Below, piece after piece: positions 19,582 to 25,494 of a stretch of 27,782 nucleotides of DNA (its first letter is position 1; each line of letters opens with the position of its first letter). Below the pieces are notes generated by a model, which was given only the letters and a program-made list of their open reading frames with translations, searched no databases and was not told the origin of the DNA. Source of the stretch: a virus; the IMG/VR virus record IMGVR_UViG_3300025138_000265, positions 1 to 27,782 of that record; one strand, given 5' to 3'. The position numbers and the translations under genes were made by a program.

Positions 19582-19949
19582 CAACACAAAACACTGCTTT
19601 ACCTATAACAAATATTAACGACAACGTAGATGCAAGAGTCAATGAATTCTTTTCCACACAATTCAGTCCTAAAGGAAAATTTACAGACAATGATTATGAA
19701 CTTGTTAAGTCGTTTTGTGTCAAGCGAACACCCAACGAACAAGCAGCAGCGGCACTTATTGCTGCGATATTAAATTCAATAAATGAATTAAACCTATATG
19801 CTCATGAGGTTATTAGTAAATTTGAAAGTACTGATCCTAGACTTAGTATACCTTTACTTTTAAACAGTAGTAGATTAGGATCGAGTTTATTAGGGTATAC
19901 AAACAACAAACAAGTACCTGCTAGAGTATCACAACAAGTTAAGGCTTGA
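19578..19949 (+). CDS. Conserved-looking structural-region protein, unknown function (123 aa)
   Basis: The start is set at ATG 19578, giving MTTQNTALPITNINDN; a TTG at 19560 would add six residues but lies in the ribosome-site region. It has 123 residues. Residues ~11-40 (DNVDARVNEFFSTQFSPKGK) are followed by a helical bundle-like part (FTDNDYELVKSFCVKR, EQAAAALIAAILNSINEL) and a C-terminal SLLGYTN ... QQVKA. I recall similar small proteins in tail/head clusters of marine myophages, without known function. It sits in a coupled run with the microprotein before it and the head-completion nuclease after it, so a head or tail completion role is plausible. Confidence 0.7.
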   Translation: MTTQNTALPITNINDNVDARVNEFFSTQFSPKGKFTDNDYELVKSFCVKRTPNEQAAAALIAAILNSINELNLYAHEVISKFESTDPRLSIPLLLNSSRLGSSLLGYTNNKQVPARVSQQVKA

Positions 19950-19951
19950 TT

Positions 19952-20392
19952 ATGGCTAACAAGTGGGCAAGAGGTTTATACGAAATAGCAAATACCAACA
20001 AGTATGCTGGACTTAAAAAACCAACTTATAGAAGTAGTTGGGAACATGCTTTTATGCGTTTCTGTGACAATCATCCGAGTGTAATACAATGGGCAAGTGA
20101 ATCAGTTAAGATACCTTATAGAAACCCATTAACAGGAAAACAAACTATATATGTTCCTGATTTTCTTATTGTTTATCAAAACAAGACTGGCAAAAAACGT
20201 GCTGAACTTATTGAAATAAAGCCAAGTGGACAAACAAGACTTACAGAAAAAACTAGCCAAAGAGATAGATTAGCAATAGCAATTAACCATGCTAAATGGG
20301 AAGCGGCGTCTAAATGGTGTCAACGACAAGGACTAAATTTTAGAATTGTTACTGAATCAGATATATTTCACCAAGGTAAGAAAAATAGATAA
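19952..20392 (+). CDS. gp4: Head completion nuclease, gp4-like (PD-(D/E)xK fold)
   Basis: T4 gp4 acts at head completion before tail joining and has a TnsA-like nuclease fold. The ATG at 19952 gives 146 residues (MANKWARGLYEIANTNKY); the frame's TTG at 19946 is less likely. Catalytic-type residues are in order: E31 in SSWEHAFMRF, D70 in VPDFLIVY, and E88-x-K90 in ELIEIKPSG. This is the D...ExK signature. Surrounding features are WASESVKIPYRNP and a C-terminal helix-strand (HAKWEAASKWCQRQGLNFRI). It starts two bases after the previous stop. AAGG lies eight bases upstream. Together with gp16 further down the unit, it ties this transcript to head maturation and packaging. Confidence 0.85.
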   Translation: MANKWARGLYEIANTNKYAGLKKPTYRSSWEHAFMRFCDNHPSVIQWASESVKIPYRNPLTGKQTIYVPDFLIVYQNKTGKKRAELIEIKPSGQTRLTEKTSQRDRLAIAINHAKWEAASKWCQRQGLNFRIVTESDIFHQGKKNR

Positions 20393-20401
20393 GTAATAAT
20401 A

Positions 20402-20581
20402 ATGTATAAAACATGTGAATTGTGTGATAAAGAATTTACTTGTAACCCTGATACATCAGGATGGCATGTTTGCTGGTGTCATAATGAACCTAGGGGTAAA
20501 ATCAACTACAAATATAATGATTGTATTTGTAGAGATTGTTTAAGAGAAACAAATGACAAAGAAATTAGAAGAATTGTTTGA
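20402..20581 (+). CDS. Small Cys-rich CWC-type zinc protein
   Basis: This encodes 59 residues with eight cysteines: C5, C8, C14, C24, C26, C41, C43 and C46, in CELC ... CWC ... CICRDC. This is the layout of the bacterial 'cysteine-rich CWC' family, small zinc proteins of unknown function. It begins nine bases after the gp4 gene. Its last 29 bases overlap the small terminase gene in another frame, with the terminase ribosome site (AAGAGA) inside it. Position between gp4 and gp16 suggests a packaging or nuclease accessory, but that is inference. Confidence 0.75.
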   Translation: MYKTCELCDKEFTCNPDTSGWHVCWCHNEPRGKINYKYNDCICRDCLRETNDKEIRRIV

Positions 20582-21023
20582 CTTAGAAGACGAAGATAAT
20601 TCAGTAGATGAACAACCAAAAGAAGAACTTACGATAACTCAACTTAACACTACATTAGATAGTGTTAGTAAGATTGATGCCGCATTACCAACTGTAAGAG
20701 ATTTAGAAACTACAGATGCTGAACTAGATGACATTGCTGAAACTGCTAGACAAACCTTTCAAGACTTAATGGACTTAGGAATGAACGTAGAGGCTAGGTT
20801 TGCAGGAGAGATATTTAATAACGCAAGTAGAATGTTAGATACTGCACTGACTGCTAAAACTAATAAAGTTAATAAAAAACTTAAAATGGTAGATTTGCAA
20901 ATCAAAAAAGCAACATTAGATCTTAAAAATAAACAAAATGCCCCTGATACTCCTGCAGATGGACAAGGAATGGTAGTAGATCGTAATACTCTTCTTAACG
21001 AAATTCTAGGCAAAAATGTATAA
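20553..21023 (+). CDS. gp16: Small terminase subunit, gp16-like
   Basis: gp16 oligomerises, recognises DNA and stimulates the gp17 motor. The 156-residue protein fits T4 gp16 (164 residues) in size and layout. It has an acidic, poorly ordered N-terminus (LEELFDLEDEDNSVDEQPKE) and a central long helical hairpin (ARQTFQDLMDLGMNVEARFA, then EIFNNASRMLDTALTAKTNK), which is the oligomerisation core. A Lys-rich helix follows (KKLKMVDLQIKKATLDLKNK), then a C-terminal tail VVDRNTLLNEILGKNV that may contact gp17. It overlaps the CWC gene by 29 bases. Its stop lies inside the next late promoter. The large subunit gp17 is about 3 kb downstream instead of adjacent. Confidence 0.85.
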   Translation: MTKKLEELFDLEDEDNSVDEQPKEELTITQLNTTLDSVSKIDAALPTVRDLETTDAELDDIAETARQTFQDLMDLGMNVEARFAGEIFNNASRMLDTALTAKTNKVNKKLKMVDLQIKKATLDLKNKQNAPDTPADGQGMVVDRNTLLNEILGKNV

Positions 21024-21026
21024 ATA
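21019..21026 (+). promoter_or_regulatory. T4-like late promoter TATAAATA
   Basis: A perfect TATAAATA followed by CACTATAA overlaps the gp16 stop codon. It lies 23 bases before the ATG at 21050, with AAAGGA between. Confidence 0.82.
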
Positions 21027-21049
21027 CACTATAATAAAGGATGACAACT

Positions 21050-21556
21050 ATGAAAACTTTCAAACATTATCTAACAGAAAGTGACACAACTTATAACTTT
21101 AGAATCAAAATAGCAAATATGATTGAAGACGAAGTTATGGATATGCTAGAAGATGCACTTGGAAAATTTGATTTAAAAAGTCTTAGTAAGCCTAAGAAAA
21201 CTCCTATCCAAGAACATCCAATGGACTTTCAAACATTAACTAATGCAGAGGTTTATATAATGGATGCGGAGGTTAACTATCCAGTTACTGCACATGTGTT
21301 ATATGAATATCTTAAACATGCAGTTGGCATAGCACCAAATGAGATAGTTGTAATTAATAAAGATCATCCTGAAGAAATCGCTAGAGAAGAATCTTTAGAA
21401 CAAGAAGGTGAAGTATATACTGCAAAATTAGATGATGCAGAATATAAAGACCAAAAAGAAATTAAAGTTGATTCACTTTACGGCGACAAATATAACGAGA
21501 ACATGTTAAAAACTATCGAGACTCGTAAATACGAATTTGCAAAAGAAGGAAAATAA
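21050..21556 (+). CDS. Candidate internal head protein with capsid-targeting-like N-terminus
   Basis: The start is set at ATG 21050 because AAAGGA (21037-21042) would overlap the alternative ATG at 21041. The N-terminus MKTFKHYLTE-S then lines up with the T4 capsid-targeting sequence known from internal protein III, MKTYQEFIAE-A, which protease gp21 cleaves after the Glu. The remaining ~158 residues are acidic and folded-looking: NFRIKIANMIEDEVMDMLED, a Lys/Pro hinge (SKPKKTPIQEHPMDFQ), AEVYIMDAEVNYPVTAHVLY and a charged C-terminus. It is probably a head-core or internal protein. It may instead be a conserved prohead-associated structural protein; similar acidic proteins occur in other marine T4-like phages as I recall. 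Confidence 0.65.
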   Translation: MKTFKHYLTESDTTYNFRIKIANMIEDEVMDMLEDALGKFDLKSLSKPKKTPIQEHPMDFQTLTNAEVYIMDAEVNYPVTAHVLYEYLKHAVGIAPNEIVVINKDHPEEIAREESLEQEGEVYTAKLDDAEYKDQKEIKVDSLYGDKYNENMLKTIETRKYEFAKEGK

Positions 21557-21557
21557 A

Positions 21558-22853
21558 ATGCATATGATTGATGTAATGAAAAAACTGTCTGAAATAGCAG
21601 AGAATTACGATAACGAAGATATACAAGCAGGTATTGTTGCTGCAGGTAAAACTCATAGTGTAGTTGCTAAAAAAACTGTTCAAGAAAGTGCTGTAAAAGA
21701 CATGATGCAGGATGTCGAAGAGGGCATGACTAAAGCAGAATTTGCAAAAAAATATCCTGGCATGGCAGATCAGTATGATGAGATCAAACAAGAAATTAAA
21801 GATAAAATGAACGAAAGTGTAAACGAAGCACCTGGTGGACAAACAATAAGTGAATCATCAGCCGGAGACGCAGTTAAACAGGCATACGATGCAGTTTATG
21901 AATTTGTAGGTCAATATGATGATGCAGCACTTGAGTACTTAGACGACAATGCTCCTATGTTTAGCCAGATGTTTGAAAAATATGAAGATTTAGATGTTTT
22001 AGTAAGCAAATTAGACGATGCTACATTAATGCAATTAAAAGACGAATTAGATTCTGTTGCAGATGATTTATCAGATGGCGTTTTAGAATCTGTAAATGAA
22101 GTGCATGAAGATGTAGAATCTGATGAAACAGAATTAGATCGTATGCTTTATTTAGGTGGTGTTATGGGTTCAAGTAGTAACAACATTATGATTAAAGAAA
22201 ATAGTGAAGTTCCAGTACAAGAAGATAGAAAAGATGATATGATTTCTTGGGTAGAAAAGTATGAAAACTATATTGGCAGGAATGGTGATAGCCTTCCAGA
22301 AGGTTACGTTCAGTGGGCGATGAATAGTGGCATCGCAACAGATGCAATGGAACAAGATGAAGTTGACGCAATGATAAAAAAATACGGCGAAGATAAATTT
22401 GAAGACGACCCAATGTCATTTATTGATGAAATGCCTATTACTAAAGCATACATGCAAGAGTTAGAACAAATTACAGGTACTGATGACATTGAAGACAATG
22501 CTGAAATGATTAGAATGTTTGTAGAAAGTGCGACTAATGAAGCAAGTGTAGAAGAAGCAAGTGTAGAAGTTCCAGTACAAGAACTACAGGACATATTACA
22601 ATTAGCAGGATTTGAAAACTATGCAGAAAAGATCGAAGAGTATGCTAATGAGCCTAACGAAGAATACGGCGATTCAGAAGAACAGATGGTTGGTTTAAGT
22701 GGAGGACTAAACGGTCCTAAGACACATTATCCAGCAGCCGCAGGTGGAGACAATCCAATGAATGTTAAACCACTTAAGGTTGATGATGTTTATGAAAGTT
22801 TTTATACAAAATATGATAAATTCATTGCAGAACTAAACAACCAAAACAAATAA
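21558..22853 (+). CDS. Large acidic, probably head-core or minor structural protein
   Basis: This encodes 431 residues from ATG 21558 (MHMIDVMKKLSEIAENYDN), one base after the previous stop; AAGGA lies upstream. It is very acidic and helical. Several (I/L/V)xE-S steps (TVQES, TISES, LESVNE, FVESATNE) resemble gp21-type cleavage sites (I/L-x-E), so it may be processed in the prohead. It contains the exact repeat VPVQE twice (residues ~217 and ~337) and a tandem EASVE-EASVE. The C-terminus (LQDILQLAGFENYAEKIEEY ... HYPAAAGGDNPM ... VYESFYTKYDKFIAEL) looks like a separate conserved block. An intrinsic terminator follows. No enzyme motif is visible. Confidence 0.65.
   Translation: MHMIDVMKKLSEIAENYDNEDIQAGIVAAGKTHSVVAKKTVQESAVKDMMQDVEEGMTKAEFAKKYPGMADQYDEIKQEIKDKMNESVNEAPGGQTISESSAGDAVKQAYDAVYEFVGQYDDAALEYLDDNAPMFSQMFEKYEDLDVLVSKLDDATLMQLKDELDSVADDLSDGVLESVNEVHEDVESDETELDRMLYLGGVMGSSSNNIMIKENSEVPVQEDRKDDMISWVEKYENYIGRNGDSLPEGYVQWAMNSGIATDAMEQDEVDAMIKKYGEDKFEDDPMSFIDEMPITKAYMQELEQITGTDDIEDNAEMIRMFVESATNEASVEEASVEVPVQELQDILQLAGFENYAEKIEEYANEPNEEYGDSEEQMVGLSGGLNGPKTHYPAAAGGDNPMNVKPLKVDDVYESFYTKYDKFIAELNNQNK
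22206..22583 (+). repeat. Duplicated 18-base motif and 15-base tandem repeat in acidic protein gene
   Basis: GAAGTTCCAGTACAAGAA occurs at about 22206 and again at about 22566, both times encoding EVPVQE in frame. Just before the second copy, GAAGCAAGTGTAGAA is perfectly duplicated in tandem (22539-22553 and 22554-22568), encoding EASVE twice. Perfect identity suggests recent duplication. Confidence 0.8.
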
Positions 22854-23922: not shown

Positions 23923-25494
23923 ATGAGCAAAAGTTTAGATGGCGTATTAATAAAAAAAGCCAACCAGCAAGAAGTATTTACAAATGAAGAGATACTTGAA
24001 TTTGCAAAGTGTACAGATTCTGCAACCGGGCCTTTTTATTTTTTAACAAACTATTTTAATATACAACATCCGGTACAAGGTCAAATAAAATACCACCCAT
24101 ACGAGTATCAAGAAAGATTACTACAGACATATCACAATCACAGATTTAACATTAACATGTTGCCTCGTCAAACAGGAAAGACTACTACTGCGGCAGGTTA
24201 CTTATTGTGGAGAGCAATGTTTGTGCCTGATAGCATAATACTTATTGCCGCACACAAGTATGCAGGTGCACAAGAGATTATGCAACGTATACGTTATGCA
24301 TATGAATTATGCCCTAATCATATTCGTGCTGGTGTTACTAGTTATAACAAAGGTAGTATAGAGTTTGATAACGGCAGTCGTATTATTGCACAAGCAACAA
24401 CTGAAAACACAGGAAGAGGTTTAAGTATCTCACTTTTGTATAGTGACGAGTTTGCATTTGTTCGTAACACTATTGCTAGAGAATTTTGGACTAGTATTTC
24501 TCCTACTCTAGCAACAGGTGGTAGTGCTATTATTACAAGCACACCTAACAGCGACGAAGATCAATTTGCTATTATTTGGAGAGATGCAAATAAGAATTTT
24601 GATGAACACGGAAATGAACTACCAGGTGCAGTTGGAGTAAACGGGTTTAAAGCATACCGTAGTTATTGGCACGAACATCCAGATAGAGACGAACAATGGA
24701 AAAAAGATGAACTAGGTCGTATTGGAGAAGAACGGTTTAGACGTGAGCATGATTGTGAATTCATTATCAATGATGAAACTCTTGTTGATAGTTTAGTTCT
24801 AACAGGTATGCGAGGAGAAGACCCTATTAGCAAACAAGGAACTGTTAGATGGTATGCGAATCCTAAACAAGGAATGACATACTTAGTAGCACTAGATCCT
24901 AGTCTTGGAACAGGAGGGGATCCAGCAGCAATTCAAGTACTAGAAGTGCCTACAATGATACAAGTTGCTGAATGGAGACATAATAAAACTCCTATACCTC
25001 AACAAATACAGATAATGCGACAAATTATACAATTTATTGTAGAAGATACACAAGATGCTAACAGTGTATACTATAGTGTTGAGAATAATAGTATAGGAGA
25101 AGCTGCACTAGTAACTATTGCAGAAATAGGAGAAGAAGCAATTCCTGGAGTATTTTTAAGTGAAAGTAGAGCTCATGGCAATAGTAAACAGTTTCGTAAA
25201 GGATTTAACACTACACAAAGAAGTAAAATAACTGCATGTAGTAAACTAAAAACACTAGTTGAAAGTAGTAGATTAAAAGTTAACAGTAAGTTATTGGTTA
25301 GCGAACTTAAATGCTTTGTTGCTAGTGGAGGTAGTTATGCAGCCAAAACAGGAGAAACAGACGACTTAGTTATGAGTCTTATACTTTCTTTGAGAATGGC
25401 TAACGAACTAAAGAACTATCTCCCTGAATTAGATACACAAATGAGCGACGGAAGTGACTACGATATGCAACCAATGCCATTTGTAATAATGTAA
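23923..25494 (+). CDS. gp17: Large terminase subunit, gp17-like (ATPase and nuclease)
   Basis: gp17 is the DNA-packaging motor: an N-terminal ATPase translocates DNA and a C-terminal RNase H-like nuclease cuts headful lengths. Walker A is PRQTGKTT at residues 81-88, where the phage-type Arg and the Gln precede TGKT. Walker B with catalytic Glu is LLYSDEFAF, with D175 and E176. STPNSDEDQ near residue 205 is the coupling motif III region. Nuclease acidic residues are D325 in VALDPSLGTGGDP, E387 in YSVENNSIGEAAL, and D480/D481 in GETDDLVMSL. It has 523 residues against 610 in T4. The ATG at 23923 lacks a clear Shine-Dalgarno. In T4 gp16 is adjacent, but here four genes separate the two subunits. 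Confidence 0.96.
   Translation: MSKSLDGVLIKKANQQEVFTNEEILEFAKCTDSATGPFYFLTNYFNIQHPVQGQIKYHPYEYQERLLQTYHNHRFNINMLPRQTGKTTTAAGYLLWRAMFVPDSIILIAAHKYAGAQEIMQRIRYAYELCPNHIRAGVTSYNKGSIEFDNGSRIIAQATTENTGRGLSISLLYSDEFAFVRNTIAREFWTSISPTLATGGSAIITSTPNSDEDQFAIIWRDANKNFDEHGNELPGAVGVNGFKAYRSYWHEHPDRDEQWKKDELGRIGEERFRREHDCEFIINDETLVDSLVLTGMRGEDPISKQGTVRWYANPKQGMTYLVALDPSLGTGGDPAAIQVLEVPTMIQVAEWRHNKTPIPQQIQIMRQIIQFIVEDTQDANSVYYSVENNSIGEAALVTIAEIGEEAIPGVFLSESRAHGNSKQFRKGFNTTQRSKITACSKLKTLVESSRLKVNSKLLVSELKCFVASGGSYAAKTGETDDLVMSLILSLRMANELKNYLPELDTQMSDGSDYDMQPMPFVIM

Follow-up and report, generated by a model that had tools for sequence, protein, structure and literature searches.

The 27.8-kb virus record analysed here (the window, meaning that whole stretch of DNA) contains a 168-amino-acid open reading frame (ORF) whose first codons, at 21050 to 21082 on the plus strand, translate to MKTFKHYLTE-S (a hyphen after the acidic residue marks a predicted cut). 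A first-pass annotation had likened this N terminus to the capsid-targeting sequence of phage T4 and had read the product as a packaged, possibly injected, effector. Is this leader an import signal for the phage head, is it cleaved, and does the protein behind it act on the host?

The T4 capsid-targeting sequence has been studied in detail, though on only a few coliphage proteins, and the T4 internal proteins are accessory, variable and fast-diverging. Mutants of T4 IPIII indicated that residues 4 and 7 govern targeting and residues 8 and 10 govern processing, with Asp10 blocking processing but not targeting; gp21 cuts at L/I-x-E, and T4 internal proteins with such a leader are injected, IPI having an anti-restriction function (PMC9026906). 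A review suggests that the capsid-targeting sequence lets T4-like phages load varied cargo (PMC9026906).

Genomic setting and protein family of the focal ORF

The focal ORF (21050 to 21556; stop codon at 21554 to 21556) lies, like all window features given with coordinates below, on the plus strand. It is preceded by a T4-type late promoter, TATAAATA (21019 to 21026), and by a ribosome-binding site, AAAGGA (21036 to 21041), 9 nt before the ATG. An alternative ATG at 21041 overlaps this ribosome site; given the 9-nt spacing, 21050 is the better start, and the earlier choice of this start from ribosome-site spacing was borne out. A TAAATA box was located 17 to 30 nt 5' of the start in all of the orthologues fetched (80/80).

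Comparison with PA5oct and CBB indicated that the virion genes of the window are arranged as in RaK2/PA5oct-like jumbo phages: neck (Ad2), dNMP kinase, sheath, two tube proteins, a gp4-like head-closure protein with a TnsA-like endonuclease fold (19946 to 20392; phrog_218, E = 1.5e-42; PF08722), a hypothetical gene, the focal gene, a large acidic protein and the gp17-like large terminase (23923 to 25494; phrog_36964, E = 6e-118). The focal gene is placed between gp4 and gp17, outside the gp20-23 head cluster. The hypothetical gene directly upstream (20553 to 21023; phrog_16202) encodes a conserved, coil-rich product of 156 aa, and a gene of similar size occupies the same place in PA5oct and CBB. 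This product is possibly the small terminase; a search for solved relatives that would identify it as gp16 gave none.

The next gene (21558 to 22853) shares a late operon with the focal ORF and encodes an acidic mosaic protein with a conserved leader, MHMIDVMKKLSEIAE-N, and a LAG-type motif. This product and those of loci L005 to L083 have a conserved N terminus of ~32 aa, MHMIDVMxKLxEIAE-x.GYDNEDIQRGI, followed by a body of ~100 to 564 aa in which whole blocks differ between contigs with an identical focal protein (L005 versus L008); some variants contain LysM or, weakly, peptidoglycan-binding domains. Because the IAE end is a gp21-type site, the mosaic protein is a second candidate packaged protein. 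PA5oct gp281, which occupies this position, is recorded as a virion protein. A DxLxRLAG-type motif was observed both in the mosaic protein and at the C terminus of gp22-like scaffolds beside gp21 (IKKLAGL, IRRLAGL, LRQLAGL), the loci being 21558 to 22853 of the window, L173:12940-14040, G006:53272 and G007:11723. From its sequence, this could possibly be a shared capsid- or core-binding motif.

The focal protein matched phrog_14802, annotated as a virion structural protein, over residues 1 to 150 of 168 (E = 5e-9). Homologues were detected by tblastn in 47 jumbo-phage records, with alignments always starting from residue 1, and each of nine jumbo genomes contained a single strong match to the phrog_14802 profile. 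Where at least 5 kb of sequence was available upstream of the terminase, 37 of 40 loci carried the family. Members such as CBB_210, 121Q gp557, RaK2 ORF047 and PA5oct gp282 are homologous to the focal protein along most of its length and share its gene order, which places the focal protein in phrog_14802. These results indicated that the focal family is a single-copy, syntenic core family of RaK2/PA5oct-like jumbo phages, whose hosts range from Vibrio to enterobacteria, pseudomonads and rhizobia. Two orthologues were detected in virions, CBB_210 with 13 unique peptides and 60.5% coverage (PMC5259590, Table 4) and PA5oct gp282 by ESI-MS/MS according to its record annotation, data that establish presence in the virion rather than a head or tail location or an N terminus.

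An AlphaFold model of moderate confidence (pLDDT 66) contained a helix at residues 4 to 10, a beta-alpha-beta-beta-alpha-beta core and a poorly predicted tail that terminates in a helix. Together with Foldseek, it points to a ferredoxin-like core at residues 15 to 103 plus the C-terminal helix. Foldseek matches in the PDB were limited to generic ferredoxin-like folds (ribosomal protein S6, PII, HPPK, CutA1; E ≥ 3.5e-3), and a search of BFVD returned members of the family and, weakly, Ip7 of phage MX01 (E = 6e-3); the Ip7 match was not used. The 168-aa protein matched no Pfam family at E ≤ 1.

Conservation of the leader and predicted cut sites in relatives

The likeness of the leader to the T4 targeting peptide was confirmed at residues 4, 7, 8 and 10, the same residues that serve targeting (4, 7) and processing (8, 10) in T4. 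T4 IPII and IPIII (MKTYQEFIAE-A) agree with the focal leader in its length of ten residues, its register, these key residues and a late-type promoter; gp21 was found in relatives on the focal side. The bodies differ. Profile A1 and the phrog_14802 profile had no match at E ≤ 1 in T4, KVP40, P-SSM2 or HTVC008M, and profile searches detected no homology of the mature body to IPI, IPII or IPIII. Furthermore, the T4 proteins are accessory and variable, whereas the focal protein belongs to a conserved core family with members detected in virions, and T4 has a set of leader-bearing genes, whereas each jumbo-phage record has one motif-bearing gene.

Orthologue sequences were read from the leader onward, and Glu10 (codon at 21077 to 21079), the predicted P1 residue for gp21, was invariant in 122 of 122 marine-type sequences. 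The capsid-targeting-like leader, MKTFKHYLTE, spans 21050 to 21079. In 36 orthologues with less than 90% identity, position 4 was F, L, I or Y, position 7 was Y, F, I or H, position 8 was L, I or F and position 10 was always E, while positions 6 and 9 were free. Only seven columns were invariant in an alignment of 30 sequences with identities as low as 25%, and Glu10 was among them. The predicted mature N terminus, Ser11 (21080 to 21082), is the P1' residue, which is S, A, N, D, T or G in the family, and small residues of a similar kind come after the cut sites predicted in gp23 of relatives.

Orthologues without the pattern MKTx6E, which the first-pass annotation had said would count against its reading, were found in part: Glu10 holds throughout the marine-type clade but is lacking in five of nine distant isolates, in which position 10 is A (PA5oct, XaC1), S (Phosso) or D (RaK2, BF). 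Asp10 also occurs in some environmental members. Several distant members of phrog_14802 therefore differ from the marine-type clade, and phrog_14802 is not a uniformly gp21-processed family, even though the leader segment itself is kept in distant relatives without Glu10. By the T4 precedent, such relatives could still be targeted.

We scanned for the pattern M[KNR]x[hydrophobic]xx[hydrophobic][aliphatic]xE in 16 phage records or fragments. It occurred at 20 of 15,442 Met codons of ORFs: 13 in the focal gene, 2 in T4 IPII and IPIII, and 5 stray. The scan found the focal gene in nearly every jumbo record, with few stray matches at most. In the RaK2/PA5oct-like records no set of several leader-bearing genes was found, a motif near the leader being present only in the focal gene. 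Comparison of all N termini in the window, which the first-pass annotation had proposed, gave a match at the start of only one ORF, and a second match was internal to the terminase. The match of the leader is more than chance.

A gp21 homologue had also been named in that annotation as something to look for. The window fragment does not span the gp20-23 region, and its contig contains no gp21. Among relatives, a first search of 13 detected gp21 (PF03420) in 7; the remaining six are contigs no longer than 74 kb. All 6 of the jumbo phages searched in addition have it, and a gp21-type prohead protease is thus present in relatives with large records. The gp23 propeptides of these relatives are predicted by inspection to end in YLSE-A, YLVE-S, FLVE-N, MLTE-S, MLRE-S and similar sequences, i.e., [YFM]-L-x-E followed by S, A or N. 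The focal YLTE-S fits this series. T4 gp23 (SFLTE-A) and IPII/IPIII (FIAE-A) have comparable sites, and the gp23 site of T4 resembles the end of the focal leader in having an aromatic residue, Leu, any residue and Glu before a small residue; in T4 gp23 it closes a 65-residue propeptide, whereas in the focal protein it closes a 10-residue leader. In the distant isolates whose focal-family protein has no Glu10, the gp23 sites keep Glu, and therefore cleavage of the focal-family protein in these isolates is either not ancestral or not required.

The leader on unrelated proteins

Two scans for MK[TS]F[KR]xYLxE over 2.9 million viral contigs detected at least 119 and at least 120 stretches. Among the matches listed, an in-frame stop preceded 171 of 203 sites by no more than 15 codons, and 93 of 203 had a late-promoter box within 35 nt. 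When the bodies of the 178 N-terminal ORFs among the matches listed were compared by BLAST, 44 clusters were obtained, some of which may be remote relatives of each other; 88 of these ORFs belonged to the focal family. Clearly different folds were identified by Pfam behind the leader, including adenylate kinase (E = 3e-43), DUF6267, cytidylyltransferase, Acb1, NT5C (with Asp10) and GNAT. A residue-reversed leader gave 1 match in the whole collection, versus at least 119 for the forward leader. Swapping position 10 alone gave at least 119 matches for E, 28 for D and 12 for K. An E9 pattern tried as a control was set aside: it gave at least 71 N-terminal matches, and of the 71 among the matches listed 47 also carried Glu10. 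At sister loci L128 and L131, which are without the focal family, MKTFREYLQE-A and MKSFREYLSE-A head an unrelated body in the corresponding region. The leader was thus found to be portable onto unrelated bodies. Counted in leader-bearing contigs only, the gp21 gene was present in 12 of 16 long ones, and one of the other four begins inside gp23. A literature search covering open-access papers found no paper on the leader strings.

A link to virions came from cyanophages, whose core cytidylyltransferase T4-GC190 was identified by mass spectrometry in virions purified from S-SM1 (PMC3037559). Its N terminus in S-SM1 is MKKFSAFLNE-A, and those elsewhere are MKSFSQFLTE (P-SSM2), MKSFFQFLSE-A (S-SM2), MKSLFQFLNE-A (Bellamy), MKSFLQFLKE-A (S-SCSM1) and MKSFTSFFTE-A (P-TIM68). 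T4-GC190 of S-SM1 and P-SSM2 shares with the focal protein a leader of the type MK[KS]FxxFLxE but has an unrelated enzyme body. The S-SM1 protein both bears the leader and was found in virions, and a virion location is thus established for a leader-bearing protein whose body differs from the focal one.

Several other leader-bearing loci were observed. Anti-CBASS Acb1-family proteins with the leader are encoded at L342:2104-2571, L473:9529-10032 and L374:8603-9130 (Pfam E = 2.8e-23, 7e-14 and 4e-12, respectively), and may represent virion-delivered counter-defence. The sister lineage of L128 (1341-8741) and L131 (2892-8061) has a run of leader-bearing ORFs (MKKYLDLFE-A, MSMRKLLDLFE-A, MKTFREYLQE-A, MSDPRFFRRYLDILDE) and a 1,386-aa ORF with an apparent transglycosylase and LysM region and a LAG motif at its end. 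In L567 (G016:3000-13000), ORFs starting with MKSFKQYLSE (basic, 92 aa) and MGVFKEYLNE-S (230 aa) lie directly upstream of gp21, gp22 and gp23, in the place held in T4 by gp67 and gp68. Identification of the 92-aa protein as a gp68 homologue was rejected, since the BLASTP match was not significant (E = 87). A 555-aa ORF at L575:4065-5729 has the leader MKTFKTYLLD, with Asp10, and a sub-threshold match to the gp23 capsid protein (E = 3.5e-5).

Readings of the leader and their meaning

Our preferred explanation, to which we assign a probability of roughly 0.62, is that a T4-like capsid-targeting leader brings the product of the focal ORF, a core virion protein expressed late, into the prohead. 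An amphipathic leader helix, hydrophobic at residues 4, 7 and 8, would dock on the prohead core, a gp21-type protease would then cut after Leu8-Thr9-Glu10, and the mature protein from Ser11, consisting of the ferredoxin-like domain and C-terminal helix, would stay in the head with the DNA. That the N terminus is a targeting leader of this kind is likely; cleavage at Glu10 in the marine-type clade is probable, and a head location is what we infer for the protein. Several observations weigh against this explanation: the loss of Glu10 in five distant isolates whose gp23 sites keep Glu, the single motif-bearing gene per jumbo-phage record, the place of the gene outside the gp20-23 cluster, proteomics that locate orthologues to the virion rather than to the head, and a window contig that contains no gp21. 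The focal leader probably works like the T4 capsid-targeting sequence, and the focal protein is no homologue of the T4 internal proteins.

The leader could instead be a helix by which an external virion protein of the neck, tail or capsid surface docks during assembly; it would then never be cut, and Glu10 would have a structural role in the helix. The adjoining tail and neck genes, the persistence of the segment in distant relatives without Glu10 and the helix predicted at residues 4 to 10 would all suit such an arrangement, but fixation of Glu10 in 122 orthologues while positions 6 and 9 vary, and the large excess of E over D and K at position 10, argue against it. Soluble enzymes, among them adenylate kinase, Acb1 and cytidylyltransferase, also begin with the leader and need no shared tail-docking helix, and we regard this explanation as unlikely.

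The reading of the first-pass annotation was partly supported. In its favour are the T4-like leader, the gp21 gene and predicted gp23 sites of relatives, the two virion orthologues and the portability of the leader; the injected effector was not supported. An effector acting on the host would be compatible with import into the prohead, and both the injection of T4 internal proteins of this leader type, with IPI as an anti-restriction protein (PMC9026906), and the presence of Acb1 among the other bodies make it conceivable. Pfam detected no effector domain in the focal body, however, PADLOC gave no match and no solved relative was found, and an effector role for the body was rejected on these grounds. 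Conservation, single copy and fixed gene order across very different hosts are more in keeping with a core function in structure or assembly than with a host-specific effector. Ejection of the focal protein into the host is doubtful, and its action there as an effector improbable.

Alternatively, a head protein may be targeted by the leader and usually remain unprocessed, Glu10 being a relic or optional. Such behaviour has a parallel in T4, where an Asp10 mutant is targeted without being cut (PMC9026906), and in the Asp10 of RaK2, BF and some environmental members. In the clade of the window, however, Glu10 is strict and nearly always accompanied by Leu8 or Ile8, and gp23 of related genomes uses a like predicted site, leaving this explanation a slim chance. 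Chance resemblance in an AT-rich genome, to which the 5 stray matches of the loose pattern might be thought to point, was refuted by conservation of the leader in 122 orthologues; the reversed control also speaks against it, and it is exceedingly improbable.

Import of the focal protein into the prohead by its leader is thus the explanation that we retain, and the wider and more interesting part of the finding is that many enzymes of environmental T4-like phages carry such a portable leader. The analysis, which included controls, places a short code of T4 type on a core protein from a group of uncultured marine phages and on dozens of further bodies in environmental phages. We tentatively suggest, at somewhat less than even odds, that MK[ST]F[KR]x[YF]LxE serves environmental T4-like phages generally as a code for import into the head and labels a large, exchangeable group of proteins packaged in virions (among them adenylate kinase, cytidylyltransferase, nucleotidase and anti-CBASS Acb1), with the focal gene as a conserved core client. 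Judged from sequence, the leader may predict which proteins such viruses carry pre-loaded. If the code is real, packaged and probably injected cargo, including pre-loaded counter-defence, would be readable from sequence alone, and the set of packaged and ejected proteins of uncultured T4-like phages would become predictable and testable, including an anti-CBASS enzyme that arrives with the DNA.
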